From a virus: 24,730 nucleotides of DNA. The translations under genes were made by a program, and so were the position numbers. How positions within the stretch are numbered: the first letter of the stretch is position 1; each line of letters starts with the position of its first letter. This document shows, in pieces, positions 6,401 through 20,887 of this stretch. Below the pieces are notes generated by a model. It was not told where the DNA came from and searched no databases. It worked only from the letters and a program-made list of their open reading frames with translations. Location: IMG/VR virus record IMGVR_UViG_3300030098_003980, positions 1 through 24,730 of that record; one strand, given 5' to 3'.

Positions 6401-6452
6401 GTAACAAATTATTTTTTTACGGCTATAGCTATTATATAAATATAATAAAGCA

Positions 6453-6496
6453 TATATAATATATATATATAATGCTATATAATATATATATATAAT
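6453..6496. repeat. Two exact 21-base AT direct repeats
   Basis: The unit is TATATAAT, then five AT steps, then AAT. It occurs at 6453-6473 and 6476-6496, so the period is 23 bases with GC in the two-base spacer. The repeats form an easily melted block inside the divergent region and could be a DNA unwinding element or a tandem operator. Confidence 0.7.
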
Positions 6497-6512
6497 ATAT
6501 AAGCTAAATAAA

Positions 6513-6542
6513 GGAAAAATTGTGTGGAAATTGGAAAAATTG
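6513..6542. repeat. Iteron-like repeats with DnaA-box-like site
   Basis: GGAAAAATTG occurs at 6513-6522 and again at 6533-6542, 20 bases apart. Between them is TGTGGAAAT (6523-6531), whose complement ATTTCCACA differs at one position from the DnaA-box consensus TTWTNCACA. The block directly adjoins the AT repeats, the arrangement seen in many iteron origins. Confidence 0.5.
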
Positions 6543-6780: not shown

Positions 6781-7323
6781 ATGAATAAGGACATAAAACC
6801 AACAAGTCCTATTACTGTTGATACCTTACCAACACTACCTACCGAGATAACATCAACAACTTGGTATCAGAACTCAGTTAACAACACCGAACTAACAAAC
6901 GTCGGTGGTGATAATTGGAAGATGACGTTGTTTGAATGTTACAACCAAAAGAAAGGTGTGTACGAGATTGAACTTGTTAAAACTAAAATAGATTTATTAA
7001 CACAGTTCGGTAAACGTCCACCTAAATCTGAAGGTGTCGGTGGGAAAGGTGAAGATTACTCTCAACACATGTCCGAAACTGTCAATGACATTAATATACT
7101 TGTTAATAAGAAAACAGGTACGTTAGTACAAACTGACAAGGACGGAAAAGAAACTGGTGTTGTATTAGGTGACGATGTGTTTACGGGTAAATCTGGTAAA
7201 TATTACAAGTTACATAAATTCTTTAGAGAATATGTACTTGTTAACGGTAAACTGACTATGTTGACAACACTAAAGAAAGGTAAACGTTACAAGGACGGAA
7301 CGGGTAAACAGTTCACTAAATAA
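6781..7323 (+). CDS. Unknown protein, first rightward (probably early) gene
   Basis: A strong ribosome binding site (AAAGGAAAGGAA) precedes the ATG. The 180-residue product has a low-complexity Thr/Pro-rich start (PTSPITVDTLPTLPT) and then a mixed, Lys- and Gly-rich body with short charged motifs such as DKDGKETG. There is no signal peptide, membrane segment or recognised domain. It is followed by its own terminator, so it is likely expressed as a separate abundant early transcript. Arg and Thr codons lean to CGT and ACG more than in many later genes, which may mean a separate origin. An early host-takeover or inhibitor role would fit the position, but nothing in the sequence shows it. Confidence 0.65.
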   Translation: MNKDIKPTSPITVDTLPTLPTEITSTTWYQNSVNNTELTNVGGDNWKMTLFECYNQKKGVYEIELVKTKIDLLTQFGKRPPKSEGVGGKGEDYSQHMSETVNDINILVNKKTGTLVQTDKDGKETGVVLGDDVFTGKSGKYYKLHKFFREYVLVNGKLTMLTTLKKGKRYKDGTGKQFTK

Positions 7324-7348
7324 CGTACCTATTCCACATACAGTAAGA

Positions 7349-7383
7349 AAAGGGAACATATATTTAACTTGTTCCCTTTTTTT
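7349..7383 (+). terminator. Rho-independent terminator
   Basis: AAAGGGAACA (7349-7358) pairs perfectly with TGTTCCCTTT (7370-7379) around an 11-base loop, and the T-run continues to 7383. It lies 25 bases after the stop of the first rightward gene and is the clearest intrinsic terminator in the window. Confidence 0.85.
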
Positions 7384-7447
7384 ACAACGTATTTTAGATA
7401 CACACACTTAAAACACTAACAACTAAAAAAAACATGATAAATAAAAT

Positions 7448-7864
7448 ATGTTAACAGTAATAATTGACAACAACAATAAATTGACGTTTGAATATCTTGG
7501 TGATACTGTTATTAAATATATACCAACGAATGACCAACGTCGCTATGTAAATGAATTCTTTACAAGATATAAATTGATGTGTATTGATGAGGACGGCAAC
7601 GAACAAAACTATCCAGTCGTAATTCATAACAACGTAAATAAAACGACAACAACATTAAACACAGAACAACTAGATTATGTTGATTTATATCGTGGCGTAC
7701 CAAATAGTACACGCTACAGACCAAATAAATTGATGACGTTTGAGAAAGACCGCGAGGAATGGTTGCTACAACGAATGAAACGTCACTTTAAAGATTTTGA
7801 TAACGGTAAGATAACCGAGCAACAGTATAAAACTGAAATAAGGACATTGATAGGCAATGGATAA
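7448..7864 (+). CDS. Unknown hydrophilic protein
   Basis: The 138-residue product begins MLTVIIDNNNKLTFEYLGD. The first half looks beta-rich (a repeated strand-turn pattern through GNEQNYPVVIHNNV), and the last 50 residues are helical and charged (EEWLLQRMKRHFKDF). No motif or family is recognised. There is no clear ribosome binding site, and a five-codon mini-frame ends just over the start (ATGATAAATAAAATATGTTAA). Arg codons are mostly CGT or CGC. It overlaps the following small membrane gene. Confidence 0.6.
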   Translation: MLTVIIDNNNKLTFEYLGDTVIKYIPTNDQRRYVNEFFTRYKLMCIDEDGNEQNYPVVIHNNVNKTTTTLNTEQLDYVDLYRGVPNSTRYRPNKLMTFEKDREEWLLQRMKRHFKDFDNGKITEQQYKTEIRTLIGNG

Positions 7865-7970
7865 AATATTTAACTATCTAGACTCGATGCCAATAGAATA
7901 TTACTTGCTAATGTATGGAATATTCTTCTTAATTGTGTATCTTGCTGGAAATAAATACAATAATAAATAA
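7857..7970 (+). CDS. 37-residue single-span membrane protein
   Basis: The ATG lies within the last codons of the preceding gene (ATGGATAA overlap). The product, starting MDKIFNYLDSMPIEYY, has one hydrophobic span at residues 15-30 (YYLLMYGIFFLIVYLA) and a polar Asn/Lys tail. Overlap, length and the clean membrane span support a real gene. Function is unknown. Confidence 0.55.
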   Translation: MDKIFNYLDSMPIEYYLLMYGIFFLIVYLAGNKYNNK

Positions 7971-7983
7971 ATAAGAGCTAAAC

Positions 7984-8241
7984 ATGAAAAAGAACGTAAG
8001 ATATTACGTTGATGACATAGTTGTTGACGCTAAAGATGATAACTTACCAAAATATCTTGATGTTTATGATAATAAAGGCAAGATGGTCACATCTGTACAA
8101 TTACATTTCGATTGCTATGAAGATGAATATGGCAATATAATAAGTTATAGTGATGATGATGATACTAACGCTTTATTACATGAAGAAGAAGATAATAACA
8201 TTTGCCCTAGTGATTGCAGTTGCCATGAAGAGGAAAAATAA
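7984..8241 (+). CDS. Small acidic protein with Cys-rich tail
   Basis: The 85-residue product has a basic start (MKKNVRYYVDD), a beta-like middle (KYLDVYDNKGKMVTSVQLHF), a run of four Asp, and a tail ending CPSDCSCHEEEK in which three Cys and one His could bind a metal. It is strongly acidic overall, which is typical of small inhibitors that mimic DNA, but no family is recognised. It starts 13 bases after the preceding stop with AAGAGC upstream. Confidence 0.55.
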   Translation: MKKNVRYYVDDIVVDAKDDNLPKYLDVYDNKGKMVTSVQLHFDCYEDEYGNIISYSDDDDTNALLHEEEDNNICPSDCSCHEEEK

Positions 8242-8243
8242 CA

Positions 8244-8372
8244 ATGAATAGAATAGAACGCTATTTTATAGACAAAGCAGAGAAAGTAGTTGACTTTATA
8301 AGTGCTGATAGTACTGGTAATGTCATCATATTTCTAGTATTGCTAGGTCTATTGTTCCAAGTTATAAGATAA
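8244..8372 (+). CDS. 42-residue C-terminal-anchored membrane protein
   Basis: AGAGGAAA lies 7 bases before the ATG. The product starts MNRIERYFIDKAEKVVDFI (amphipathic helix) and ends in one membrane span, VIIFLVLLGLLFQV, with a final Arg. The stop overlaps the next ATG as TAATG. Topology suggests a cytoplasmic N-terminus. Function is unknown. Confidence 0.6.
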   Translation: MNRIERYFIDKAEKVVDFISADSTGNVIIFLVLLGLLFQVIR

Positions 8373-8608
8373 TGCCAACGCTTGAAGATTTATATAAAGC
8401 AGAGGATTTTCCGTGGGTTGGCAAAGTAAAATGGGGCTTAATCAAAAAATTAACGCTAAAACAATTTCAAGATTTGTATAATCCCAATGCAAGATACATG
8501 AAGATAAAGCATAAGTCGATAGGCAATATAGTCTATTTTAGCATACTTCTTCAAATACATGAAGATAAATTATGTGTAGATTGTAATTGGTGCGCCCTGA
8601 AGGTTTAG
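8372..8608 (+). CDS. Small protein with C-terminal Cys cluster
   Basis: The 78-residue product (MPTLEDLYKAEDFPWVG at the start) ends with CVDCNWC, a compact metal-binding-like motif. A near-duplicated DNA word, ATACATGAAGATAAA, occurs twice (about 8494 and 8555), encoding the KIKHK and HEDK regions. Translation probably depends on reinitiation after the TAATG overlap, as no ribosome binding site is seen. No family is recognised. Confidence 0.5.
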   Translation: MPTLEDLYKAEDFPWVGKVKWGLIKKLTLKQFQDLYNPNARYMKIKHKSIGNIVYFSILLQIHEDKLCVDCNWCALKV

Positions 8609-8627
8609 TCATGTTTTCCTTTGGGGC
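8594..8627 (+). promoter_or_regulatory. 10-bp hairpin over a stop codon
   Basis: GCCCTGAAGG (8594-8603) pairs with CCTTTGGGGC (8618-8627), including two G-U pairs, around a 14-base loop that holds the TAG stop of the preceding gene (8606-8608). No T-run follows, so it does not look like an intrinsic terminator. It could stabilise or mark an RNA end. Confidence 0.45.
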
Positions 8628-8652
8628 AAAGATTTTAAAAAGAGGTATATAA

Positions 8653-8865
8653 ATGAACGAACAAGAACAAAAAGCTTTAGATTCATTGATAGCTGTAAGT
8701 ATATCTATGGGTGAGTTTATGAAAGCTATTATAAAGTTGACTACCAACAAGCAAACAAAAGAATATCTACTCGCTTTACAAAGTGTAGAAAGAGATGTAG
8801 CTCGTATTGTTGAAAGTATAGTATCTTTGAAAATGAAGCTAACAAATATATTTATAAATAAGTAA
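8653..8865 (+). CDS. Small all-helical protein
   Basis: AGAGG lies at a proper distance before the ATG. The 70-residue product begins MNEQEQKALDSLIAVSISMG and shows hydrophobic heptad spacing to its end (VERDVARIVESIVSLKMKL), consistent with a helical bundle or dimer. No catalytic or metal motif is seen and no family is recognised. It is followed by a structured noncoding stretch. Confidence 0.6.
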   Translation: MNEQEQKALDSLIAVSISMGEFMKAIIKLTTNKQTKEYLLALQSVERDVARIVESIVSLKMKLTNIFINK

Positions 8866-8873
8866 AGATTTAA

Positions 8874-8967
8874 TTGGGGTTGAAGCAAGCACATAATAAA
8901 ACCGAGTGCGTGAGGTCGTATCATTATCTCCTTTGTTAATAGCGACTGACAAAGCCGGACACCCCAA
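8874..8967 (+). ncRNA. Structured noncoding island before the AAA+ gene
   Basis: TTGGGGT (8874-8880) pairs perfectly with ACCCCAA (8961-8967). Within it, GCAC can pair with GTGC (about 8887-8908), and GGTCGT (about 8913-8918) with GCGACT (about 8942-8947, with wobbles). Together these give a three-way junction of about 94 bases. CCGGAC lies directly inside the 3' closing strand. The island fills most of the 150-base gap before the AAA+ gene. It could be a 5' regulatory leader or a stable small RNA. No known RNA family was recognised and it is not a tRNA (no T-arm). Confidence 0.4.
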
Positions 8968-9015
8968 AGATTTGTGCTCGACATAAAGTTGGGCCATTAA
9001 TAAAAAAGGAAGCGT

Positions 9016-11148
9016 ATGGCGGAAACTATCACATATTCCGTACCAGAGCAAGACGATATAAATACTGTTATAGGTCTACATGCAGCGTTGAATGATGAAG
9101 GTTACATTTGTGACGAATCATTTGCGTCTAAAATAATGACATCTATAAACACGAAGCCCATTAGTGGTGCATTTTTATATGGTATGGCTGGTACTGGAAA
9201 GAGTTACCTACCAATGGTACTTGCTAAAGTGTTAGAACGCCAGCTTTTCGTACATCAATGTACTCAAGGCACTCGTGAGGAAGATTTACTCGTGAAAATA
9301 ATGCCATCTGAAGATACAGCTTCAGGTGTCAAAGTTGGACATGGTAAAATATTCCAAGCAGCCATTGAGTCTCGCAAAAGACCAGTTATGTTGATGCTGG
9401 ATGAATGGGACAAAACAAGACCTAGCGTAGATGGATTCTTTTTGGATTTTCTACAATATGGTCGTTTATCGTTGCCCGGTGTTGAAGATGGTGATGTTCA
9501 AGCTAATTTGGACAATTTGACCGTATTTATCACTGCTAATGATGAACGTGAATTTCATGAAGCTCTACTACGTAGATTTCCAATGATTCATGTTAATCCT
9601 ATTGAACCTGCTGATGTTGTATCTGCTCTTAAGTTGACTCATGATGACAATGAATACATTCCAGCTATGTTAGACCTGTATACACGCAGTATAAAAGCAA
9701 ATTTGCCAAAACCTGCTACTATACAAGAATTACGTCAGTTGATGGATGCTATTGATTGTTTAGATGGCGATGGTGACTGGGATGCGTTGGTGTATCAGTA
9801 CATAACAAAAACACCAGAAAATCATATTCTTCTTGCTGACCAAGATAAGGTAGAAGATTTTGATATGCCTAGCTTGAACAAAAAAGTGGATGCTGATGAA
9901 TATGGTGTTGATGTTGTGCCAGAACGTATTAGCAATGAAAAAGGATATATGCCTGACCTAAGAGATTTAAGTCGATTCAACGAATCCTTTGAAGAAGCTA
10001 AATTATCGCGTGTTCCTGAAAATACATCAGTTGTTCTTGCGAGAAACCCTGAAGATTCAGTTGTTATAGATGATTTTATGATGACTGAAGACCTAGATAG
10101 CTCCGAACCTGAATTGGCAGCAATGCCTAGTTGGGGTGTTATCACAGAGAATGTTGCATATATAACTAATGTAGTATTTACGAGTGCTCACGCTCACTAT
10201 TTAGACAGAGCGAGATTTTTCCGTGATAAACAAGGAGAAATTCGTATTGTTGACAAATATGCGACGCGAGAAGAAGTAAACAGGATGCTACAAGGTAAAT
10301 GGTTCGTACATAAAAGAGATAAGGAAGAAGTAATAGCTAGATTAATAGGTTCAACCAAGACAGACTTGCGTTACACAAAAGAAGGCGGTCTTGAAATCAT
10401 TACTTCAACCAGTCAGAAATTGCTTAGGCTATTCAGACTAAACTGTAAAGATAATCTTGCTTATATTCATTCACTTGAAGAAATAAGTCAAGATTCTTTA
10501 AACGCTTTATCTTATCGTACAACACCATCAAATCTGGCTGTACGTGATTTGTATCGCACAATTACACAAGGTACAATTAGTGTAGGCAATAGCGTAATAA
10601 AATCAATGAGCGAACATGATGGTTATTGCAGGGGATTATTTGTAAGGTCTCCGTATAATGGACGCGAAAGATGTCACATGGCAGACATTCCATTCATAGA
10701 CACATTACTTGATGGTGCTGGTAAAGACTACAAAGTGAAATCTATGCAAGATGGTTTTGTTATAGTAGCCAAGAACATTGATTTTATCGTTACCAAAATC
10801 GGTGCTGAAGACCATGGCTTGATGAAGATGAATATTGATGGATATGTGACACCAAAGGTTATGGCAGTTATCGTTAATTGGCTATCTGATATACCATTGT
10901 ATAAATGTTTTCAGCATGACGGTACAATAAGAGAAAAGCTGGAAAAGACCGGCTGGCGTATATCTGTTGGCAATGTTAATGTCTTATATAAGAATGGAAT
11001 ATATGCTTATATAGTTTATGACTATGTAATGTTTTGTTGTTTCATTAATGAGCATAGCAGTCACGATAACGAAAGCCTTTCGCTAGACATGAAATCTAAA
11101 ATAAACAGGATGAGAGCTCTTGAAAAAGCACATAGACCGACTACATAG
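9016..11148 (+). CDS. MoxR-type AAA+ ATPase (CobS-like)
   Basis: The 710-residue protein has an N-terminal AAA+ module: Walker A GMAGTGKS at 56-63, Walker B LMLDE at 126-130 followed by WDK, sensor 1 in FITAND (N175) and an LLRRF arginine-finger motif at 184-188. The loops between these resemble MoxR and CobS rather than DnaA or ClpX. Residues about 300-710 are an additional region with no recognised domain, much longer than in usual MoxR proteins. MoxR ATPases act as chaperone-like remodellers with a VWA-domain partner, and that partner is encoded next with a 29-base overlap. The ribosome binding site is AAGGAAG. The phage role is unknown. Confidence 0.85.
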   Translation: MAETITYSVPEQDDINTVIGLHAALNDEGYICDESFASKIMTSINTKPISGAFLYGMAGTGKSYLPMVLAKVLERQLFVHQCTQGTREEDLLVKIMPSEDTASGVKVGHGKIFQAAIESRKRPVMLMLDEWDKTRPSVDGFFLDFLQYGRLSLPGVEDGDVQANLDNLTVFITANDEREFHEALLRRFPMIHVNPIEPADVVSALKLTHDDNEYIPAMLDLYTRSIKANLPKPATIQELRQLMDAIDCLDGDGDWDALVYQYITKTPENHILLADQDKVEDFDMPSLNKKVDADEYGVDVVPERISNEKGYMPDLRDLSRFNESFEEAKLSRVPENTSVVLARNPEDSVVIDDFMMTEDLDSSEPELAAMPSWGVITENVAYITNVVFTSAHAHYLDRARFFRDKQGEIRIVDKYATREEVNRMLQGKWFVHKRDKEEVIARLIGSTKTDLRYTKEGGLEIITSTSQKLLRLFRLNCKDNLAYIHSLEEISQDSLNALSYRTTPSNLAVRDLYRTITQGTISVGNSVIKSMSEHDGYCRGLFVRSPYNGRERCHMADIPFIDTLLDGAGKDYKVKSMQDGFVIVAKNIDFIVTKIGAEDHGLMKMNIDGYVTPKVMAVIVNWLSDIPLYKCFQHDGTIREKLEKTGWRISVGNVNVLYKNGIYAYIVYDYVMFCCFINEHSSHDNESLSLDMKSKINRMRALEKAHRPTT

Positions 11149-12193
11149 AGATTGGCGTAAGTTCGATACCGTAGACAAACCAAAGGAGGACAATATAAAA
11201 GTAGATGCTCCTATTGTCAATGATGTCAAACCGACAGACACGGCAATCAATGCACAGCAGCTGAATAAAGGTAGGTTTATAAATCCTGAGTTAAGTGTCA
11301 AGAAAGCGAACAATCTGGGGGGCGTCAAGCCCCTCGGATTGGGCAAGTTAAAAGGAAATTCAAACGCCCTTTCAGAAAGATTTAATAACAATATAAAAGC
11401 AAATTCAAAGTCTCTTAAAACAGTCAATAATAGGCATGATGAATATGAAGAATACGAAAAAATGCTGGATGTTTTAACAAGAGCTCAAAAACGTAGCGTA
11501 AATGACTTTCAAGAAGCTATTGATTATGATGGAATGAGTGAATATCCAGCTCCAGCAAGTAATTTAACGCGAGATGGAGTTAAAAATAGGAGATTAGCAG
11601 TAGAATTATCTAGAGTTATCAGTAAATTAGCTGAAGACCACGTGGGGGCCACAACAGAGGGTGATGATTTTTGGGATTGCGATAGATTAGTAAGACGGCA
11701 ATTCAACAAAGAATCAATATATAACTGTCGTAACTCGCGTGAAAAACAAAATATTGTCATTATGTTGGACAGCAGTCCATCATGTGAAAAAGAATCTCAA
11801 TTTTATAGCGATATAGCTACTCAAATATGCAGATTTGGAGATGTTGAATTATATAACGCTCCCAATGGTAGGCTAGTTAAGATATATAGCACCAAAGAAA
11901 AAAGATTTGTTCCATTTTTAACAATGGAAGATGTAATTAAAGATATACATAAATTATCAGCGTTTAAAAATAGAGTGATAATATTTTTTGGCGATTGTGA
12001 TGGATTTAGAATTATGGCCGAAGCGTCAGTAAATAATATAGTATATTATTTTAATTCTTCGCATATAGATGATATTGATTATTATATAAGTCAATATGGC
12101 GATAGATTTAATGGAAAACGAAGTAATTTTAATGTTATGCCAGACATAATAAATATTAAATCATTTATGGAGGCGTGCAAAAAACTTAAATAA
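11120..12193 (+). CDS. VWA-domain protein, partner of the AAA+ ATPase (CobT-like)
   Basis: The start is most likely TTG at 11120, inside the end of the AAA+ gene, with AGGA 9 bases upstream; the next in-frame Met is near residue 115. Residues 1-110 are polar and Asn-rich and probably disordered. A helical region follows with WDCDRLVRRQF (185-195), as seen before VWA domains of CobT-like proteins. The VWA begins at about 211, with a MIDAS-like DSSPS at 217-221 and further strands VIIFFGDCDG and NNIVYYF. MIDAS metal sites let such proteins bind clients for the cognate MoxR ATPase. The pair resembles the CobS/CobT-like pairs annotated in large phages. Confidence 0.75.
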   Translation: MKKHIDRLHRDWRKFDTVDKPKEDNIKVDAPIVNDVKPTDTAINAQQLNKGRFINPELSVKKANNLGGVKPLGLGKLKGNSNALSERFNNNIKANSKSLKTVNNRHDEYEEYEKMLDVLTRAQKRSVNDFQEAIDYDGMSEYPAPASNLTRDGVKNRRLAVELSRVISKLAEDHVGATTEGDDFWDCDRLVRRQFNKESIYNCRNSREKQNIVIMLDSSPSCEKESQFYSDIATQICRFGDVELYNAPNGRLVKIYSTKEKRFVPFLTMEDVIKDIHKLSAFKNRVIIFFGDCDGFRIMAEASVNNIVYYFNSSHIDDIDYYISQYGDRFNGKRSNFNVMPDIINIKSFMEACKKLK

Positions 12194-12220
12194 CAACAAC
12201 ATAAAAAGGAGCTAATAACA

Positions 12221-12862
12221 ATGGCTAAGAATAAAATAAAGTTCTTGGTAAAAAAGAAAGATAAGCTTTATTCCGGAACTCCCGGCAGTAAAGAAGAAAG
12301 TGATAATTATCATGATGTAGCTTTAAAACTATCATTAGATATGTATGAGCTTACTAACAGATTACCAAGACATGAATATCTTTCAGCTATGGCCAAGTAC
12401 TTTAAAAAGAGACCGGGCGTTATAGATGCAGAAGCTGGAAGTTATAAACCACATCAAAGTATGGCTATCAAAATGTATTTGATGAGCGATATTGTTAAGG
12501 TTCTTAACACAGTTTCTGAACAAGCTAACGTTAAACCAGATGATATGAATATCAACTTAGAGTTCGTTGATAAATATAGGCATGGTAAAGGACAACCAAT
12601 AGCTATTAGTGTTGGGATTCATAAAAGGTTAGATAAAAGTAAAGCTGAAGTAGTTCATAGGCTATGCATGATACATATGCAAGAACTTTTACGTAGCTTT
12701 CATGAAGAATATCCCGGCATCGCTATATCAGATGATGAAGGACGAGATATCTTGACTGGTGCGAGTACTTTCAAAAGAGATAAAGATGTAGAAATTGATG
12801 ATGAGACCGCTAAAGCCTTAGAGCGGTTAGATTGGGATAGAACATCTAGGGGTGAGGCATAA
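12221..12862 (+). CDS. Unknown protein, third member of the AAA+/VWA cassette
   Basis: AAAAGGAG precedes the ATG, and the gene follows the VWA gene after 27 bases. The 213-residue product begins MAKNKIKFLVKKKDKLYSG. It is mostly helical with a charged tail (DRTSRGEA) and includes HRLCMIHMQELLRSFHEEY around residue 150. No domain is recognised. Because it is co-oriented and ends at a strong structured island, I infer it acts with the ATPase and VWA proteins, for example as client, adaptor or regulator. This is not shown by sequence motifs. Confidence 0.65.
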   Translation: MAKNKIKFLVKKKDKLYSGTPGSKEESDNYHDVALKLSLDMYELTNRLPRHEYLSAMAKYFKKRPGVIDAEAGSYKPHQSMAIKMYLMSDIVKVLNTVSEQANVKPDDMNINLEFVDKYRHGKGQPIAISVGIHKRLDKSKAEVVHRLCMIHMQELLRSFHEEYPGIAISDDEGRDILTGASTFKRDKDVEIDDETAKALERLDWDRTSRGEA

Positions 12863-12873
12863 TAATAGAATGC

Positions 12874-12999
12874 TATATAAGAGTCTCTGAGTTAAATCAA
12901 TCTACGTGACGAAATAGCTGAGTGAAAAGTCACGCTCTTATATACTCTCTATTAGGATAAAAGAGAGCATAGGTTTTTATATTTTCCCCTATGCTCTCT
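12874..12999 (+). promoter_or_regulatory. Structured island with two competing hairpins (attenuator-like)
   Basis: TATATAAGAG (12874-12883) pairs perfectly with CTCTTATATA (12935-12944). Inside, CGTGAC (12905-12910) pairs with GTCACG (12929-12934), and its 3' strand directly abuts the outer stem, so the helices can stack. Next, AGAGAG (12962-12967) can pair either upstream with CTCTCT (12945-12950) or, as part of the 12-bp AGAGAGCATAGG (12962-12973), with CCTATGCTCTCT (12988-12999). A run of nine T lies at 13012-13020, 12 bases after that stem. The mutually exclusive pairing resembles attenuation, but the T-run is farther away than in normal terminators. Confidence 0.5.
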
Positions 13000-13045
13000 A
13001 CCCTTCGCTAATTTTTTTTTAACTATAAATAAAGGAAACAAATAA

Positions 13046-13366
13046 ATGGGAAACCTAGAAGATTCCTTGCTAGAATATGGCATTATCAAAACAATAAACG
13101 CAGGTAGTAATGTTTGTTGTGATGGATGTAATGGCCCTTATCCAGAGCAAGGTGATGAAATAAATGGAGGTGTTATCATTGGCGGTAGTGCTTATTGTCA
13201 AGCTTGTTCAGATAGATATGGATGGGAAGCAGAAGACTATGAATACGCTGATGAAATAACTGAAATTATGGATAAAAACAAGACATTTAAGCAAAATGTT
13301 CTTGATTACAGAAAGAAAATGACTGGTTCTACTGACGCAATTACAAGGATATATAGCATTAAATAA
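13046..13366 (+). CDS. Small zinc-binding protein
   Basis: AAAGGAAA lies before the ATG. The 106-residue product has Cys at 24, 25, 28 (CCDGC) and 51, 54 (CQAC), a two-knuckle zinc site spanning a Gly-rich loop, then an acidic helix (EYADEITEIMDKN) and a basic tail. No family can be named. It is the first gene after the attenuator-like island and is followed by the AT-rich palindromic spacer, so it may be an individually controlled unit. Confidence 0.65.
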   Translation: MGNLEDSLLEYGIIKTINAGSNVCCDGCNGPYPEQGDEINGGVIIGGSAYCQACSDRYGWEAEDYEYADEITEIMDKNKTFKQNVLDYRKKMTGSTDAITRIYSIK

Positions 13367-13541
13367 TATATTATTATTATTTTTTTTAGCTATTATGCTA
13401 AATATTATAAATATATTATATATAGCTATAGCTAATATATATATATTATATAAATAAATAAAAGTGAAATCATGTTTTTTTGAAAACATTGGTAATTAAC
13501 TTGATAACTTTGTAATTTCAGTCATGGAAAGGTTAAGAAAT
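13367..13541. repeat. AT-rich palindromic spacer
   Basis: This gap is almost pure A/T to about 13460. It contains the palindrome TAGCTATAGCTA (13423-13434) and an inverted pair TTAGCTAT (13386-13393) and ATAGCTAA (13428-13435). The GCTATAGCTA word followed by TTATATAAATA also occurs in the divergent control region at 6422. It may be a regulator binding site, a promoter for the recombination genes or a second melting region. The last 80 bases hold only AT-rich sequence and the upstream ATG rejected for the next gene. Confidence 0.5.
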
Positions 13542-13745
13542 ATGGAAAACATCAAACAATGCTCATTCAGGTGTCCTGAGTCTATTTGGAAGCGATTTAA
13601 ATTGTATTGTACTTACAACAATATCGCTTGTCAAGACCAGCTTACCACATTGATTGAGCAATTCATTAACAACGAAGAATCAGAAATAAGGAAAAATGCA
13701 GGAAAGGAACTTAAAAAGCATTTACAGTCAGTACCTCGAGCATAA
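13542..13745 (+). CDS. Ribbon-helix-helix-like DNA-binding protein
   Basis: I chose the ATG at 13542, not the one at 13524, because AAAGG lies 9 bases before it and none precedes the other. The 67-residue product begins MENIKQCSFRCPESIWKRF: a beta strand followed by helix WKRFKLYCTYNN and a second helix CQDQLTTLIEQFINN, the layout of RHH (CopG/Arc-like) dimers. It likely binds DNA near its own gene, where the palindromic spacer lies. It overlaps the nuclease gene by 50 bases. Confidence 0.55.
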   Translation: MENIKQCSFRCPESIWKRFKLYCTYNNIACQDQLTTLIEQFINNEESEIRKNAGKELKKHLQSVPRA

Positions 13746-14433
13746 GAACGACCAACATACCGCTGTAAGATATCGTGATAAATCATGGTTTCATAGCAGT
13801 TCATCAGGGTTGTGTGCTAGAAAGCATTTTTACTCCTCTGTTCAACAAGTCGAAGGTACGCCTGTGAATGATAATACACAGCGTATCTTCCGGCTTGGTA
13901 ATCTAGTGCATGAAGATATACAAGATGCACTCACTTGGTATGCTCAGAAACATGGGTTGCCATTACTTATAGAAAAAGAAATTTATTTAGAAGATTTAAA
14001 TGTACGTGGCTACATTGATTTAGCCTTGCTTGATACAGAAGGCAATAACCATGTACTATACGATATAAAAACCTGCAACGAATGGAAGTGGAAAGGTTTG
14101 TTTGGCAGATTCGGAGATGGAGAGCCATCAATGAATTACCAATTACAACTTGCTACATATGGATTGTGGGCCAAAAGATACTATGAGTTAGATAGTGTCA
14201 AAATGAAATTATGCTACTACAACAAGAACACAAGTATGATGCGAGAAATTGACGTATCTGAAGAGTACATTGATGAAGCTCAAGAGTACTGGAGTAGGGT
14301 TAATTTGCTCGTGGCGGACAAAACTGTACCTGATGTGAATCTAGGTATAGCCCCAGTATATAAATGGGAATGCAACGAAAAATACTGTCAGTTCTATGAT
14401 GTATGTGGCGGAGGTTTAAATGCTATTAATTGA
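13696..14433 (+). CDS. Cas4-like PD-(D/E)XK exonuclease with Fe-S cysteines
   Basis: The 245-residue protein has the RecB/Cas4 nuclease motifs: LVHEDIQ (H72), RGYIDLALL (D108), LYDIKTC (D123, K125) and the QLQLATYGLW motif (Q149/Q151, Y155). One N-terminal Cys (C40, LCARK) and three C-terminal Cys (C226, C231, C237) fit the 4Fe-4S cluster of Cas4, AddB and Dna2-type enzymes. Such enzymes resect DNA ends to make single strands, the substrate for the annealing protein encoded downstream. There are no cas1, cas2 or repeats nearby, so this is a phage recombination enzyme and not a CRISPR gene. AAGGA lies 4 bases before the ATG. Confidence 0.85.
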   Translation: MQERNLKSIYSQYLEHKNDQHTAVRYRDKSWFHSSSSGLCARKHFYSSVQQVEGTPVNDNTQRIFRLGNLVHEDIQDALTWYAQKHGLPLLIEKEIYLEDLNVRGYIDLALLDTEGNNHVLYDIKTCNEWKWKGLFGRFGDGEPSMNYQLQLATYGLWAKRYYELDSVKMKLCYYNKNTSMMREIDVSEEYIDEAQEYWSRVNLLVADKTVPDVNLGIAPVYKWECNEKYCQFYDVCGGGLNAIN

Positions 14434-14440
14434 AAGGTCA

Positions 14441-14588
14441 GACACCGTTAAAAACAGGATGACGAGTGTCGGGTTGAGCGAATATATGGTGGAGACTACC
14501 ATGATTAATAGCATGATTTCGGGGATTGATTGCTCTGTTTTTTTCCTTTTTTCTTGCAGACAGCGAATCAACGCCAACGTCAATCCCC
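14441..14588 (+). ncRNA. Structured noncoding island before the membrane-protein cluster
   Basis: This 185-base gap has no plausible gene but several stems. GACACCGT (14441-14448) pairs with ACGAGTGTC (14462-14470, one bulge). ATGGTG (14486-14491) pairs with TACCAT (14497-14502) around a 5-base loop. GGGGATTGA (14521-14529) pairs perfectly with TCAATCCCC (14580-14588), enclosing a U-rich stretch (14538-14554). GAGC..AAT (14476-14483) could also pair with ATTGCTC (14529-14535) just before the U-run, which would make a terminator-like form. It may be a regulatory leader or a small RNA; no known family was recognised. Confidence 0.45.
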
Positions 14589-14618
14589 AAGCTTTAAATA
14601 AAAGAAAAGGAATAGGAA

Positions 14619-14777
14619 ATGTATATGGTAATACTATCAATATCAGAATGGATAGCTAATCTATTCATATTCTCAATATCATTATGTTTAATAAGTGTAG
14701 GTACGCTTTTATTAGCAACAATCACAAGCATATCTACAGAATGGATAAAAAGAAAAGTAGAGGAGTCTAAAAAATGA
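14619..14777 (+). CDS. 52-residue small membrane protein
   Basis: AAAAGGAATAGGAA precedes the ATG. The product starts MYMVILSISEWIANLFIF and is hydrophobic from residue 3 to about 38 (one long or two short spans, including SLCLISVGTLLLATI), then ends with a basic-acidic tail (EWIKRKVEESKK). The stop overlaps the next gene as ATGA. With the following genes it forms a run of small membrane proteins. A holin-like or host-membrane role is possible but unproven. Confidence 0.65.
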   Translation: MYMVILSISEWIANLFIFSISLCLISVGTLLLATITSISTEWIKRKVEESKK

Positions 14778-14965
14778 TACATTGGTTACAATCACTATCA
14801 GAGAATGGCTTTGATGTATTTATAGTAGTATATCTAGCTGTTTTATTACTAGCATATCATTATTTAATGAGATGGTATCTTAATATAAGGTTAGATGATA
14901 TATCAAAAAACCTAGATGAAACTCATACATTGCTTCATCATATAATTGATGAGGTAGAAGAATGA
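14774..14965 (+). CDS. 63-residue single-span membrane protein with helical tail
   Basis: GAGGAG lies before the ATG. One membrane span covers residues about 13-34 (DVFIVVYLAVLLLAYHYLM), followed by RWY as a cytoplasmic anchor and a charged amphipathic helix (DDISKNLDETHTLLHHIID). The layout suits a bitopic membrane protein that oligomerises through its tail. It is translationally coupled on both sides. No family is recognised. Confidence 0.65.
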   Translation: MIHWLQSLSENGFDVFIVVYLAVLLLAYHYLMRWYLNIRLDDISKNLDETHTLLHHIIDEVEE

Positions 14966-15162
14966 TTGACCTATCAAGGGTAAGCGATATTGAATTCTCA
15001 GGCATAGATAATGCTGACTACCCTGATTATAGCGATGCATTTATAGAGTCAGCCACATACAGAGGTCGTGAAATGACGCAAAGAGAAATAGATGAATTGA
15101 TGGACAACTATCGTGATTTTGTATATCAAAAGCTAATGGAATTTGAGCCTTTTACTGAATGA
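14962..15162 (+). CDS. Small acidic conserved-type phage protein
   Basis: The 66-residue product has an acidic N-terminal half (DIEFSGIDNADYPDYSDAFI) and a helical half, YRGREMTQREIDELMDNY, then DFVYQKLMEFEPF. This arrangement (acidic N-terminus, R-E-M-T-x-x-E-I-D-E-L) reminds me of small uncharacterised phage proteins, but I cannot name a family. It has a GAGG site and ATGA coupling to the gene before. Confidence 0.6.
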   Translation: MIDLSRVSDIEFSGIDNADYPDYSDAFIESATYRGREMTQREIDELMDNYRDFVYQKLMEFEPFTE

Positions 15163-15260
15163 TTCAGGTATTGGTATTATTGTGCGTATTTCTTATGGCA
15201 CTAAGAGAATTAATTGATAAAATAAATCAAAAAGGAGTCGTTAATGGCAAAGACGAATAG
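15159..15260 (+). CDS. 33-residue membrane peptide
   Basis: The ATG overlaps the preceding TGA, and the stop lies 17 bases inside the next gene. The product begins MIQVLVLLCVFLMALRELI and consists of one short hydrophobic helix plus a polar tail (DKINQKGVVNGKDE). The coupled arrangement supports expression; the short length makes the call tentative. Confidence 0.45.
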   Translation: MIQVLVLLCVFLMALRELIDKINQKGVVNGKDE

Positions 15261-15852
15261 TAATATGGAACTTTGGCAATCTGTTGAAACAACAGACCCA
15301 AATTACACAAAGAAAGTAAACCAAAGAGGTGGTTTTACAGCGATTGGTGCTCAATACCAATTAATGAGAGCTACTGAAACTTTTGGCCCAATGGGTAAGG
15401 GCTGGGGTGTAAAAGCAGAACATATCCAAAAATGGGAAGATGTAGGACTAGCTGTATATGAAGCTACATTATGGTACGTGGTTAAAGATAAAGAATACTA
15501 TATACCTATACACTCATCAATCAAATACCACACTAGCGGTAGAGTAGATGATGACTTTTATAAAAAGGTAGCTACTGACGCTTTAACTAAGGGTCTGAGT
15601 AAACTTGGATTCAACGCTGATGTATTTATGGGTAAGTTTGACGATAATAAGTATGTTAACCAACTTAAAAAGAACAACAACAAAACCCCAGAAATTGATT
15701 ATACATCTCTGATATCAAAAGCTGCTGATGGATTGAGCGAAGAAGACAAGAAAACAGTTATGTCAAACATAGACAAGGTAAATTCTCTCAACGTCAAAGC
15801 GATATTGAAAAGAATTGATGAGATGAAAGCCTCAAACGAGGATAAGTCATAG
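15244..15852 (+). CDS. Rad52-like single-strand annealing protein (candidate)
   Basis: AAAAAGGAG precedes the ATG. The 202-residue protein has a conserved block, GFTAIGAQYQLMRATETFGP (31-50) then GWGVKAEH, and a second block, KVATDALTKGLSKLGF (108-123), ending in DVFMGKFDDNKYV. These match a phage family usually grouped with Rad52/Sak-type annealing proteins (Thr-Asp-Ala-x-x-K-x-Leu-Ser-x-Leu-Gly-Phe motif). Residues 140-202 are a charged linker and helical tail. It would anneal complementary single strands made by the Cas4-like nuclease encoded upstream. The family assignment is by motif memory, not alignment. Confidence 0.6.
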   Translation: MAKTNSNMELWQSVETTDPNYTKKVNQRGGFTAIGAQYQLMRATETFGPMGKGWGVKAEHIQKWEDVGLAVYEATLWYVVKDKEYYIPIHSSIKYHTSGRVDDDFYKKVATDALTKGLSKLGFNADVFMGKFDDNKYVNQLKKNNNKTPEIDYTSLISKAADGLSEEDKKTVMSNIDKVNSLNVKAILKRIDEMKASNEDKS

Positions 15853-16337
15853 TGGCGGATGTAGATGATGTCATGAAAGATATTGAATCTGATGATGTCT
15901 ATTACGAAGAAGAAGCAGAACAAAAACAAATAGAGAAAGGTACTTACGAAGCTGAAATAGTAGCTTTAAGGCGTAAGCTTAATTTTAAAACAAAGTATGG
16001 ACATATCTGTGACATATATTGGCCCAGATATAAAATAGTAAGCGATTCGCCAAAGTACCCTAATAGGTTAGTACGTGACGCTGGTCAATGGAGATATCGT
16101 TCTGCCAATGCTAGAAAAAGGAATATATATTACAAAAAATTCCTTGATAAAATAGGAATTAGCTTGTCTAAAAGAGAGGTAGATGGTAATATTAGGTACT
16201 CTCTTCCCTCAATATCTGAGGACATGATTAAAGGAAAGAAAGTTCTTATTAACGTATACAAGGAAGAGTGGAGCGACTCCAGAGGATACCATAACGAACC
16301 AGTTGCTAAACTGATAAAAGTTATTGAGGATGTTTAG
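15852..16337 (+). CDS. Possible ssDNA-binding protein (OB-fold, DUF669-like)
   Basis: The start is GTG at 15852, overlapping the last base of the annealing gene, with GAGG about 9 bases upstream; the first ATG is seven codons later. The 161-residue product has an acidic start, then GTYEAEIVALRRKLNFKTKYG and later VLINVYKEEWSDSRGY and EPVAKLIKV, a strand-rich pattern as in small phage OB-fold proteins that accompany annealing proteins. The central YRSANARKRNIYYKKFLD is basic and aromatic and could contact DNA. The ssDNA-binding call is inferred from pattern and neighbours. Confidence 0.5.
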   Translation: MADVDDVMKDIESDDVYYEEEAEQKQIEKGTYEAEIVALRRKLNFKTKYGHICDIYWPRYKIVSDSPKYPNRLVRDAGQWRYRSANARKRNIYYKKFLDKIGISLSKREVDGNIRYSLPSISEDMIKGKKVLINVYKEEWSDSRGYHNEPVAKLIKVIEDV

Positions 16338-16548
16338 CGTTGATTGGCTATGCTTTGAAAAGATAATAGAACTTATGGAAAAAGAATTTAACGGATATAT
16401 GACATATAGAGATGCTGTATTTTTTGCAGGTCTACCAAGACATTATAGAGGCAATGTTTATTTTCCTGAGTTTTTAAAACATAAAGTTATAGTGATGTTA
16501 CCCGAAGGAGAAGATGAGCAATTATACATTTTAAGGAAAGATAGATGA
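16330..16548 (+). CDS. Small protein of unknown function upstream of the helicase
   Basis: I prefer ATG at 16330 over the in-frame TTG at 16324. The 72-residue product begins MFSVDWLCFEKIIELMEKEF and is compact and mixed, with YFPEFLKHKVIVMLPEGEDE in its second half. It overlaps the genes on both sides (ATGA with the helicase). Its position directly before a DnaB-type helicase suggests a replication accessory such as a loader or inhibitor, but no motif shows this. Confidence 0.5.
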   Translation: MFSVDWLCFEKIIELMEKEFNGYMTYRDAVFFAGLPRHYRGNVYFPEFLKHKVIVMLPEGEDEQLYILRKDR

Positions 16549-17873
16549 ATAAAACATACCCACATAGCATAGAAGCAGAAAGAGTTATATTGGGTCAAGC
16601 TATGGTTGACAACTCTGTCATTGACCAAATATCACAATACATACCTGAAGAGCAAGTGTTCTATAATTCAGGACATCAAGAAATTTGGAAATGCATACTG
16701 TCATTACACAGAGAAGGAGCTTCTGTTATAGACCCTATTACTGTGAATACGCAGATGCCAAAGAATACAAATCTTGAATCACCAGCTTATTACCTTACAG
16801 GTCTTATAGATGAGGTTGTTACTACAGGCAATGCCGAACATTATGCGAAATTAGTATATGAGAAATGGTTATTAAGAAAGGTGATACAAAAATCAAAGAA
16901 GATAGAAGGCGTCATGGATTTAGATGGCGATGGTGCTTATCAATCTTTACAAAGACTTAACAGAGAGATAGAAGATATACTTAATCTTAGAATACGAGAA
17001 GACTTTAGCCTTGATAGTCTGTTAACAGAAACAGTAAAGCATATGACAGTAACAGATAACATAGTGCCTTTTGGATTCAAGCCACTTGATGATTTAACAG
17101 GTGGTATGACAAAGGGAGAGATTACTGTTGTAGCTGGTAGACCCGGACATTTTAAATCTACAATGACAATCAATGTCGTTAGTAATCTATTGAATAGAGG
17201 TATGAAGGTACTTGTATTCAATAGAGAGATGTCTAATGTTGAGATGATGAAAAAACTGATGATAATAGAGAGTGAATCATTATCATATCATACAATGAGA
17301 ATGGGAGACTTTAGCGAGTCTGATAAGAAAGAATTGGAACTAGCGAAAAACAAGATAAAAGATAAGTATAAGAATCTTATCATGTATGATGATGTATTTG
17401 ACATAGACAGAGCAATGAGAGAGATTAGAAAGAACAGACCCGATGTCGTTGTAGATGATTATATAGGTCTTATAGACGTTATTGGAGTCGAGGACAACAG
17501 ATTAAGAATTGATAACATCATGAAACAATATAAAAGAGCAGCTAAGACATATAATATGTCCGCTCTATTAGTATCTCAGTTAAATCGAGCTTGTGAAGAT
17601 AGGTCTAATAAACGTCCTATATTACGTGACTTACGTGATTCCGGTTCTATTGAACAAGACGCTGAAATGATATTGTTTATGTACTATGATTGGAGATATA
17701 ATTATCAAGACTCTTTGGTAGGAGAACATGGAATTGAAGTTGTTCTAGGTAAGAATAGATATGGTAAAACAGGCAGTCAAGTACTTGGAGTTGTTGGAGA
17801 TAGATGTAAGATACTCAATAGCCCTGAGGATTCAATGTTGGAAATGAAACGATTAAAAGGTGGTAATTCATAA
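16545..17873 (+). CDS. DnaB-family replicative helicase
   Basis: The 442-residue protein has both DnaB domains. The N-terminal helical domain (residues 1-110) has PHSIEAERVILGQAM and VIDQI; the C-terminal RecA-like motor starts near 175 (PFGFKPLDDLTGGMTKGE). The P-loop is GRPGHFKS (198-205), Walker B is VVVDDYIGL (301-309), the sensor is VSQLNR (343-348) and the arginine-finger region is RDLRDSGSIEQDAE (361-374) with KNRYGKTG at 403-410. DnaB rings unwind DNA ahead of the fork. The usual Gly before the P-loop Lys is Phe here, which is unusual. No primase is fused to it. AAGGA precedes the ATG. Confidence 0.9.
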   Translation: MNKTYPHSIEAERVILGQAMVDNSVIDQISQYIPEEQVFYNSGHQEIWKCILSLHREGASVIDPITVNTQMPKNTNLESPAYYLTGLIDEVVTTGNAEHYAKLVYEKWLLRKVIQKSKKIEGVMDLDGDGAYQSLQRLNREIEDILNLRIREDFSLDSLLTETVKHMTVTDNIVPFGFKPLDDLTGGMTKGEITVVAGRPGHFKSTMTINVVSNLLNRGMKVLVFNREMSNVEMMKKLMIIESESLSYHTMRMGDFSESDKKELELAKNKIKDKYKNLIMYDDVFDIDRAMREIRKNRPDVVVDDYIGLIDVIGVEDNRLRIDNIMKQYKRAAKTYNMSALLVSQLNRACEDRSNKRPILRDLRDSGSIEQDAEMILFMYYDWRYNYQDSLVGEHGIEVVLGKNRYGKTGSQVLGVVGDRCKILNSPEDSMLEMKRLKGGNS

Positions 17874-18148
17874 TTATTGACAATCCAGAAAACCACACCT
17901 TAACCAAATGCTGTTATAATAATATATATAAAGAGATTGGTAAAAATACAGCAAAATGTGTTAATTGTGGCAATATTGTAAGTAAGCAATTAATGGATGC
18001 CCATGACAATAACTCTTACAGTACAAAAGTATGCTATGGCAAAACAAAGAACATATACGGAAATAACAACCTAGACTTAATAGATGACTTTTACGATGGA
18101 TATGGATATTGGGATTACTGTATGTATTTAAAAGACCATAAAGAGTAG
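17870..18148 (+). CDS. Zinc-ribbon protein with non-canonical start codon
   Basis: An open frame follows the helicase with clear coding character but no ATG, GTG or TTG before its zinc motif. In-frame candidates after the upstream stop (TAA at 17864) are ATA 17870, ATT 17873 and ATT 17876, placed 6-12 bases after AAAGGTGG. With ATA the start overlaps the helicase stop as ATAA. The 92-residue product begins IIDNPENHTLTKCC and has KCVNCGN (Cys knuckle) plus a CC pair 17 residues upstream, then a Tyr- and Asp-rich tail (FYDGYGYWDYCMYL). An internal ATG at 17992 would remove the zinc site. Function is unknown. Confidence 0.5.
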   Translation: MIIDNPENHTLTKCCYNNIYKEIGKNTAKCVNCGNIVSKQLMDAHDNNSYSTKVCYGKTKNIYGNNNLDLIDDFYDGYGYWDYCMYLKDHKE

Positions 18149-18185
18149 GATATGATGTGGATAATAAATCTAATAAGGAGTAAAA

Positions 18186-18425
18186 ATGGAAGCTAAGATT
18201 GGCAAATATGGAATATGGATATCTGATGAGGAGATGCGAATAATACAGAACGCCTTAGAATGGTTAGAGAATAGTTGTTGTAATGAAATTCCAAAAATAG
18301 GTGACGTAAAAAATCTGCGAAATGACCTTGAAAAAATCAAGAAAAACGGAATGCAAATACCAAAAAAGGTTGAGATTCCTAATGAGGAAGACGTATTTAA
18401 TATACAATGTAAGGAATGTGACTAA
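18186..18425 (+). CDS. Small helical protein with terminal CKEC
   Basis: AAGGAG lies before the ATG. The 79-residue product begins MEAKIGKYGIWISDEEMRII, has a helical centre with two adjacent Cys (ENSCCNEIPK), a basic region (IKKNGMQIPKKVEIP) and ends QCKECD, so a CC/CxxC metal site is possible. The stop overlaps the next ATG (TAATG). No family is recognised. Confidence 0.6.
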   Translation: MEAKIGKYGIWISDEEMRIIQNALEWLENSCCNEIPKIGDVKNLRNDLEKIKKNGMQIPKKVEIPNEEDVFNIQCKECD

Positions 18426-18760
18426 TGTCAAAGAGAAAACAAAAGAGACCTACTACAAGGGAACTTAAAAGAGATATTGGTGTGATTGTTAAAGAGGTAG
18501 TAACACTACAAAAATATGTGAATGAAGTGTTAGCTCCACTTGTAAAAACCAATATGAATTTGCTTGAGAAATATCTTGAGCACAAAGGAGAGTTGAATAC
18601 CTTTGTTGAATACTTAGAAAAGGATGCAGAAAATGCGAAAGAAATTATCAACGAAAGCTCAAAAAAGAGGTCGGAGAAACCGCCAAAGAGGAGCGGAACT
18701 CCAAAGACAAGCGGTAAAGATGGCAAAGGAGATGGAACTGGAGGCGTACAACAGAGATAG
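18425..18760 (+). CDS. Coiled-coil protein with disordered basic tail
   Basis: The 111-residue product begins with a basic stretch (MSKRKQKRPTTRELKRD), then helices with heptad spacing (VIVKEVVTLQKYVNEVL, NMNLLEKYLEHKGEL, FVEYLEKDAENAKEI), and ends in a low-complexity Lys/Gly/Ser tail. The last 128 bases also encode the N-terminus of the Hjc-like nuclease in another frame, which probably explains the odd tail composition. No family is recognised. Confidence 0.6.
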   Translation: MSKRKQKRPTTRELKRDIGVIVKEVVTLQKYVNEVLAPLVKTNMNLLEKYLEHKGELNTFVEYLEKDAENAKEIINESSKKRSEKPPKRSGTPKTSGKDGKGDGTGGVQQR

Positions 18761-19004
18761 AGGTGGAGCTCAGCATGAAAAAGGAGATGTTGAGATTGAA
18801 GGACTTTATTATGGTTGCAAAAGACGAAAGGTTGTACCATCATGGGTCTTACCTGAAAAAGAAGAAAGTGGAGTTGTGTTTAGAGCTGATAGAATGGAGC
18901 CTTATATTTCTATTCCTCTGGAACGTTATTTATTACTAGTCGCAGCTTTAAACGATTTAACTAATTTGGGTATACAACCAGAACCATCTAAAGATTTAGT
19001 GTAG
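18633..19004 (+). CDS. Hjc-like Holliday junction resolvase / PD-(D/E)XK nuclease
   Basis: I take ATG 18633 as start because AAGGA lies 8 bases before it; an ATG at 18624 is also in frame. The 123-residue protein has RRNRQRGAELQRQA near the N-terminus, then NRDRGGAQHEKGDVEIEGL and YYGCKRRK, then FRADRMEPYISIPL, the order of phage Hjc-like resolvases (Arg-Gly-x-x-x-x-Arg, GDV, x-x-K-R-R, RADR-x-P). The residue before the catalytic Lys is Cys rather than Glu, which is odd. It would cut branched recombination or replication intermediates before packaging. The first 128 bases overlap the coiled-coil gene in a different frame. Confidence 0.6.
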   Translation: MRKKLSTKAQKRGRRNRQRGAELQRQAVKMAKEMELEAYNRDRGGAQHEKGDVEIEGLYYGCKRRKVVPSWVLPEKEESGVVFRADRMEPYISIPLERYLLLVAALNDLTNLGIQPEPSKDLV

Positions 19005-19018
19005 TATAGTGTAGTATA
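18999..19018. repeat. Two tandem copies of GTGTAGTATA
   Basis: An exact 10-base tandem duplication spans the stop codon of the Hjc-like gene. It probably arose by slippage and places TAG triplets in several frames. No function is evident. Confidence 0.6.
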
Positions 19019-19026
19019 GAACATAA

Positions 19027-19083
19027 GAGGCCATCGTGTGGGGTTATGCCTCCTTTCCTCCCCGCGTCCGGAACGATGGCTTT
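19027..19083 (+). promoter_or_regulatory. Long stacked hairpin after the Hjc-like gene
   Basis: GCCATCGT (19030-19037) pairs perfectly with ACGATGGC (19073-19080), extended by three weaker pairs at the base. The next six bases, GTGGGG (19038-19043), pair with CCCCGC (19060-19065, one G-U), so the 5' strand is continuous, with a 16-base pyrimidine-rich loop and a GTCCGGA bulge. TTTCTTG follows on the plus strand, a poor T-run. It could be a terminator, a processing site or a regulatory leader for the next operon segment. Confidence 0.5.
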
Positions 19084-19101
19084 CTTGCCTAAGGAAAGAT
19101 A

Positions 19102-19485
19102 ATGGGAAATTTTGATATTGATTTAGATTTTGGACTTGTCCATGAGGACAAAGTACGCAACATATTTGAGGGTAAAGGCTCAATAGAAGTAAAAACAGAA
19201 CGTGACATATGGACAAGCACAGGCAATATGGTCATAGAAATTGCTTGTAGAAACAAACCATCTGGCATTAGTATAACTGAAGCTGAGTGGTGGTGTCATT
19301 TGTTCACAATAGATGGCGAAATAAAATTTATCGTCATGATGAAGGTTAAGGAACTAAAGGAAAGGATAAAGGAATTGGCAAGAACAACAAATTTAATTAA
19401 GAAAGTTAATGGTGGAGATGATAACGCATCAGAAATGCTACTCATACCAGTCAAGCATTTAGTAGGTTACTCATGGAAGAAATAA
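19102..19485 (+). CDS. Possible PD-(D/E)XK endonuclease-like protein
   Basis: AAGGAAAG precedes the ATG. The 127-residue product begins MGNFDIDLDFGLVHEDKV, with IEVKTERDIWTSTGNMVIE at about residues 28-47: an acidic cluster, then E-V-K, then a second strand with Glu, as in small restriction-like folds. SGISITEAEWWCHLF follows, a pattern seen in phage Hjc-related proteins. Catalytic activity is not certain. It overlaps the methyltransferase by 13 bases. A nuclease beside a methyltransferase invites a restriction-modification reading, but the recombination context is the better fit. Confidence 0.45.
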   Translation: MGNFDIDLDFGLVHEDKVRNIFEGKGSIEVKTERDIWTSTGNMVIEIACRNKPSGISITEAEWWCHLFTIDGEIKFIVMMKVKELKERIKELARTTNLIKKVNGGDDNASEMLLIPVKHLVGYSWKK

Positions 19486-20336: not shown

Positions 20337-20578
20337 TGTCTGAATACGATAACACAAATAGGGGAGCTTTGTTTCCCAATTCATATAAAGAGGATGGCGA
20401 CAAAAAGCCTGACTACTTAGGTAATGTAAACGTAGATGGAGAGGAGTGGAGGCTCGCAGCTTGGGCTAATACTTCTAAAAACGGAAAGGATTATTTAAGT
20501 ATAACTGTATCTGAGCCACAAGAAAAAGCTGAACCTAATGGCAAATCTGCAGTAGATGAAGATGACGTTCCATTCTAA
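20336..20578 (+). CDS. DUF736/SSB-like protein with DDVPF tail
   Basis: I start at MSEYDN (20336) because CAGGAG lies just upstream and it overlaps the methyltransferase stop as TAATG. The 80-residue product has the DUF736-like pattern GALFPNSYK, PDYLGNVNVDGEEWRLAAW and SKNGKDYLSITV, a small beta barrel. It ends VDEDDVPF, matching the acidic tip of bacterial SSB (DDDIPF), which recruits replication and repair proteins. It may therefore act as a mini-SSB or decoy for host partners of SSB. The similarity of the tail is seen; the role is inferred. Confidence 0.6.
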   Translation: MSEYDNTNRGALFPNSYKEDGDKKPDYLGNVNVDGEEWRLAAWANTSKNGKDYLSITVSEPQEKAEPNGKSAVDEDDVPF

Positions 20579-20886: not shown

Positions 20887-20887
20887 T

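Follow-up and report, generated by a model that had tools for sequence, protein, structure and literature searches.

A MoxR-type ATPase, a VWA protein and a small third protein as a possible protein-remodelling machine in an uncultivated phage lineage

The virus record IMGVR_UViG_3300030098_003980, which was analysed over its entire length of 24,730 bases (the window), contains three tandem open reading frames (ORFs) on the + strand within 9016-12862: a MoxR-type AAA+ ATPase with a long C-terminal extension, a von Willebrand factor A (VWA) protein, and a small third protein. We propose, with a probability of about 0.45, that this trio is an ATP-driven protein-remodelling machine, in which a ring motor and VWA protein like those of NorQD are joined by a dedicated adaptor or anchor, and which acts early in infection; the early timing is deduced solely from gene position. 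The trio occupies 27% of the + strand block 6781-21205, in agreement with a first-pass annotation of this DNA that had assigned it a sizeable fraction of the early region. The genes and their parts are as follows, the domain borders in the ATPase being approximate.

9016..11148, + strand: MoxR-type AAA+ ATPase, 710 amino acids (Pfam AAA_5 match, conserved motifs, Foldseek likeness to NorQ and CbbQ)
ATPase residues ~20-270: AAA+ module
ATPase residues ~300-480: first C-terminal domain (CTD1)
ATPase residues ~490-710: second C-terminal domain (CTD2)
11120..12193, + strand: putative VWA co-chaperone, 357 amino acids, TTG start (VWA_CoxE match in the family, invariant residues, AlphaFold2 model)
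VWA residues D217-S219-S221C ... D292xD294: site resembling a metal-ion-dependent adhesion site (MIDAS); the C-terminal end reads KKLK
12221..12862, + strand: third protein, 213 amino acids (conserved position and tail, AlphaFold2 model)

A tblastn search of 50,697 isolate-phage records with the ATPase and VWA protein returned no match, while a scan of IMG/VR with the ATPase alignment produced 56 loci, some of them distant or cut by contig ends. The best-resolved loci were grouped by hand, using a tree, into viral clades A (that of the window) to G, which possess the long ATPase, and X, in which the ATPase is short (469-536 amino acids). The ATPase gene is directly followed by the VWA gene in 29 of 29 viral loci taken as representatives.

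The identity of the motor is well supported. The ATPase matches Pfam AAA_5 at 7.9e-12, above the cut-off, and has a Walker A motif (G56xAGxGK62), a Walker B motif (L128DEWDK), sensor 1 (N175), an arginine pair (R186R187) and a sensor-2-like arginine (R240), all of which are invariant or nearly so in an alignment of 12 relatives; the first-pass annotation, which had described a MoxR-like ATPase with intact Walker A, Walker B, sensor 1 and arginine finger, is thus borne out. When the AlphaFold2 model (mean predicted local distance difference test score, pLDDT, a modest 66.7, with the C-terminus modelled best) was compared with known folds by Foldseek, NorQ and CbbQ were among the best solved structures, at 6e-5 to 1.3e-4, and LONP1 was ranked first. 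Residues 84-109, where a helix-2 insert beta-hairpin might lie, are conserved and mostly fall below a pLDDT of 50. Searching PDB sequences with the ATPase gave no MoxR match, and PADLOC returned just weak AAA-core matches to a candidate system (PDC-M37B, 7.6e-5). In NCBIfam the AAA+ core comes closest to the MadB family AAA-type ATPase (NF047784, 5.5e-12), but the protein is not a member, since its score of 45.5 bits is far below the cut-off of 475. Fold matches to giant-virus proteins were of very low identity and were not used.

After the AAA+ module come approximately 440 further residues, where about 400 had been noted before, and this extension is preserved in length and mostly alignable across seven viral clades. 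It has no convincing family match in Pfam, PHROG, NCBIfam or PDB sequences, nor does any convincing fold match in the top lists from PDB and BFVD cover the module and extension together. The possibility raised at the outset, that the C-terminus would prove to be a known standard MoxR or CobS extension, did not materialise. Neither the long C-terminus nor the gene pair is unique to this virus; together they define a family comprising several viral clades. The model displays a similar order of secondary structure at residues 380-473 and 600-706 (window 10153-10434 and 10813-11133); an internal tandem repeat there was unsupported by profile self-comparison.

The second gene was earlier said to encode a VWA protein with a MIDAS-like site and to overlap the ATPase gene; the overlap is 29 bp, and the assignment stands on the evidence of the family. 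The window protein itself has no VWA match in Pfam, while VWA_CoxE is matched by five of 12 aligned family members (best 4.5e-5), and 32 of 32 relatives share D217xS219xS221 and D292. They also share the N-terminal W12, which supports the TTG start. Nearly all relatives have a basic C-terminus, strands alternate with helices in the predicted structure, a pattern typical of VWA folds, and both model and alignment indicate that the protein terminates at the VWA domain. It was modelled with the third protein as a single chain, the intervening TAA being read as a residue for this purpose only (pLDDT 66.0); the top solved fold match of this fused model is NorD in the NorQD complex, at an E-value of 0.037 that is not significant alone. 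Matches of the same model to OsmC/Ohr-like folds (best E 0.07) were not used. Two cysteines around the first MIDAS strand, C203 and C222 (window 11726-11728 and 11783-11785), are likewise invariant in all 32 relatives.

The third protein has no match in Pfam, PHROG or NCBIfam, nor in PADLOC, where the VWA protein was also without a match; it is predicted to consist of helices and a beta-hairpin. Its C-terminal tail, WDRTSRGEA in the window, is conserved and probably disordered, the last eight residues having low model confidence, and in clade A no other stretch is as dense in invariant positions as the tail WD[KR]xxxGEA (5 of the 9 final residues, p ~3e-4). All long-ATPase viruses that are readable at that place have a small ORF after the pair, and in clades A-E the third gene lies directly 3' of the VWA stop. 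By hhalign, the genes of clades A, D and E are weakly linked as one family and those of B and C as another (A-D 1.1e-4, A-E 1.6e-3, B-C 6e-4); homology between clades A and B is not claimed, at E-values of 0.12 and 0.096. With the gene order kept in relatives and a ratio of nonsynonymous to synonymous substitution rates (dN/dS) of 0.08-0.41 in related pairs, the previously reported unrecognised 213-residue gene is evidently real. It accompanies the pair in related phages of clades A-E, contrary to what would have refuted the first-pass reading, but in the short-ATPase viruses no homologue is in place, nor is there one in the cellular cousins described below.

Outside the AAA+ module, the trio evolves faster than neighbouring phage genes. 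Between the window and the relative L003, the large terminase subunit (TerL) is 93% identical, portal 91%, DnaB 88% and the AAA+ module 84%, with the terminase small subunit and metallophosphoesterase lying within 88-93%; the corresponding values are 49% for CTD1, 42% for CTD2, 48% for the VWA protein and 38% for the third protein. Some early small genes are variable too (g180 55%, g138 49%). Five pairs of relatives were usable for dN/dS (L018/L031, L018/L050, L045/L048, L061/L066 and L028/L044, synonymous change being saturated in the last), and in these the ratio was 0.13-0.20 for the ATPase, 0.15-0.40 for the VWA gene and 0.19-0.41 for the third gene, compared with 0.08-0.11 for metallophosphoesterase, 0.10-0.15 for g202, 0.09-0.11 for g161, 0.07-0.12 for TerL and 0.03-0.14 for the Cas4-type exonuclease. 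All values are below one, and so the three genes are real and under purifying selection.

In proposing how such a machine might work, we draw on NorQ-NorD and CbbQ-CbbO, with which the trio shares a MoxR-type AAA+ fold, an adjacent VWA protein with a DxSxS MIDAS-like site and a conserved VWA C-terminus; it differs in its ATPase extension, its third protein and the non-conserved MIDAS threonine, and there is no nitric oxide reductase or Rubisco gene among its annotated neighbours. The ATPase would form a ring, probably a hexamer, which by analogy with NorQD the VWA protein would plug, passing the force of the motor to a client. The VWA beta-hairpin at residues 254-265 is a candidate for a NorD-like pore 'finger', and the conserved basic C-terminus may contact the ring in a NorD-like manner. 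The MIDAS is regarded as the likely client-binding site (PMC13036017; PMC9976466); here it could be bound by an acidic residue, possibly in the terminal GEA of the third protein, which as a dedicated adaptor or anchor would help to choose the client together with the long C-terminal domains of the ATPase. That client may be a protein or complex of the host, and not one of the conserved proteins of the phage, since a stable motor combined with fast-changing target-facing parts hints at a target in the host cell. A fuller version of this proposal, which we regard as possible but doubtful, sees the trio as the hallmark of an uncultivated phage family: a host-facing machine with a conserved motor, fast-evolving C-terminal domains and VWA protein, and an exchangeable adaptor, which reshapes or dismantles a host complex, for instance a defence assembly or one of the host machinery, early in infection. 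The earlier guess of a host-takeover or anti-defence role gains indirect support from the evolutionary rates, but is unproven.

Several observations weigh against a remodelling machine with a dedicated third subunit. The ATPase model is poorly confident over much of the AAA+ part, and the complete MIDAS signature DxSxS-T-D is not present, the conserved threonine being absent from its expected place in the 32 relatives. In clades F and G the third-gene place is taken by unrelated small ORFs, and the third gene may thus be an exchangeable neighbour and not a subunit. On the AAA+ tree the long and short ATPase forms are separated by one change, such that the co-occurrence of CTD2 with a third gene counts as a single event. 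With regard to rates, the pairs L060/L062 and L010/L011 are near-copies, and in the former the VWA gene (0.07) and third gene (0.08) evolve no faster than the Cas4-type exonuclease (0.06); in clade G fast change is seen in the adjacent CDGCN gene as well; and the faster change could reflect relaxed constraint.

The surroundings of the trio could point to another client. In loci that reach far enough, the genes for a ribbon-helix-helix (RHH) protein, the Cas4-type exonuclease, g202, g161 and DnaB lie 3' of the trio on the same strand, although not each was detected everywhere, and terminase and portal are on the opposite strand; at L055 only the pair and a methyltransferase were seen. Among isolates, the closest TerL shares about 26% identity and the Cas4-type exonuclease has no match; together with the synteny, this places the trio in a block on the replication side of a lineage that has no close isolate in the searched collection. 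The machine might accordingly load or disassemble the replication or recombination complex of the phage itself (DnaB helicase, g202, Cas4-type exonuclease), and the AAA+ core does match a clamp-loader PHROG, and DnaC-like PHROGs in single members. We consider this unlikely, however, because these partners are 73-88% identical between the window and L003 while the VWA protein, C-terminal domains and third protein are at 38-49%, and because the clamp-loader matches span the generic AAA+ core only.

It is rather less likely that only the ATPase and VWA protein cooperate, the third gene being an independent accessory that adjoins them by chance. The unrelated ORFs of clades F and G and the lack of a homologue in short-ATPase viruses would be explained in this way, but the position of the gene right after the VWA stop throughout clades A-E and its conserved tail in clade A would not.

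Precedents among viruses bear on a further alternative, that the trio is a virion-assembly chaperone. The MoxR-VWA pair p618/p892 of Acidianus two-tailed virus (ATV) has been proposed to act in virion assembly, p618 having further protein partners (PMC4124505), and a role in virion or tail assembly has been proposed for the MoxR-vWA pair of group 2.2 jumbo phages, in which the vWA protein has a metallopeptidase domain (PMC7824862). Both are viral MoxR-VWA chaperone pairs like the trio, from which we set them apart by their descriptions, not by sequence. A virion role here is nevertheless improbable: the trio is opposite in strand to terminase and portal where these are covered, sits inside the replication block and has its own downstream hairpin, and the packaging proteins are conserved where the trio is not. 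Taken together, the evolutionary pattern and the synteny speak for a client that is host-facing and met early, more than for virion assembly, but do not name it.

The N4 genes gp24 and gp25, in which a phage AAA+ gene is likewise closely followed by a VWA gene, sit between RNA-polymerase and replication genes and are matched in 821 and 669 isolate phage records, respectively. The N4 AAA+ protein has 352 amino acids and lacks the extension of the trio ATPase, while gp25 contains HExxH metallopeptidase and GGTS motifs that are both missing from the trio VWA protein; hhalign gave no significant evidence of homology for gp24 (probability 25%, from 33 aligned columns that lie outside the AAA+ core) or gp25 (0.3%). 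Judged by sequence, the trio is a variant of viral MoxR-VWA couples, distinct from N4 gp24/gp25 and without their metallopeptidase domain. The VMAP and iSTAND ternary conflict systems also combine MoxR and vWA proteins with a third component (PMC7159879), but the third protein of the trio has merely 213 amino acids and its VWA protein lacks a C-terminal effector. Nothing points to a ternary system of the VMAP type: the third protein matched no Pfam family, no VMAP-C or iSTAND profile being run by name. As to the LARA domain of RavA, Pfam gave nothing significant beyond the AAA+ core and the 50 best fold matches did not include a RavA chain, no direct comparison being made.

Cellular relatives, all of the two-gene form, were found in metagenome-assembled genomes of SAR324, Bacteroidia and another bacterial group. 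VWA profile matches occur in 6 of 52 sampled genomes from the phylum of the SAR324 locus, 4 of 297 from that of the Bacteroidia locus and 1 of 198 from the third, each count including the genome from which the search began. Long ATPases, of up to 712 amino acids, occur among the cellular relatives too, but mostly cannot be aligned past approximately residue 455. In three genomes of the Bacteroidia locus's phylum (L095, L096 and L097), a succinate dehydrogenase/fumarate reductase flavoprotein gene is near the pair, with a DAO-type FAD oxidoreductase in L095 and L097 (the ORF tested in L096 had no Pfam match) and also beside the pair in L081. These neighbours and the fold likeness to NorQ and CbbQ are what could be said for an enzyme-maturation couple inserting a metal or cofactor and retained from a cellular ancestor, which is very unlikely, given that other cousins (L082, L083, L098, L099) have different neighbours, that the viral C-terminal domains and third gene diverge fast, and that nothing in the viral neighbourhood points to a metalloenzyme client, leaving the metal-insertion idea of the first-pass annotation as just an analogy with NorQD.

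Two noncoding elements flank the trio.

8976..8994, + strand: small hairpin (GCTCGAC..GTTGGGC) in the leader, conserved in 6 phages and preceding the ribosome-binding site of the ATPase gene
12962..12999, + strand: hairpin AGAGAGCATAGG...CCTATGCTCTCT at the end of the unit, judged by eye to be terminator-like; a T-run follows at ~13012-13020

The trio had been placed between structured noncoding islands, and this is correct downstream, where 12863-13030 folds strongly (z -4.4, with none of 200 shuffles as stable) and its last hairpin and T-run recur in relatives; a terminator scan limited to loops of 3-8 did not list this hairpin. Upstream, the stability of the 150 nt before the trio is ordinary (z -0.64) and there is only the small leader hairpin, in which 97.6% of cells are paired across the six phages compared with 17-43% in slid controls; two pairs are changed on both sides, a number that 89 of 500 column shuffles reach too. 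Rfam has nothing near any gathering score within 8600-13600. The region of the trio is also flanked by AT-rich islands at 6406-6518 and 13389-13469, which are 64-76% similar and may be regulatory or origin elements. Elsewhere in the window, the CDGCN gene at 13046-13366, 3' of the trio, encodes a CxxC-rich protein of 106 amino acids that was detected in many viral relatives; an N6_N4_Mtase DNA methylase gene lies at 19473-20336 (9.2e-53); and a protein of 960 amino acids encoded on the - strand at 21798-24680 is without a Pfam or PHROG match.

Viral MoxR-VWA couples are common, and in published accounts their function is proposed, not settled. In the phage family described here, whose lineage has no close isolate in the searched collection, such a couple forms a core block with a new C-terminal extension and a third component. 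The family offers a comparison set comprising a viral long form with a third gene, a viral short form without one, and two-gene cellular cousins. The contrast between a stable motor and a changing target side makes the trio a testable case for a target in the host.

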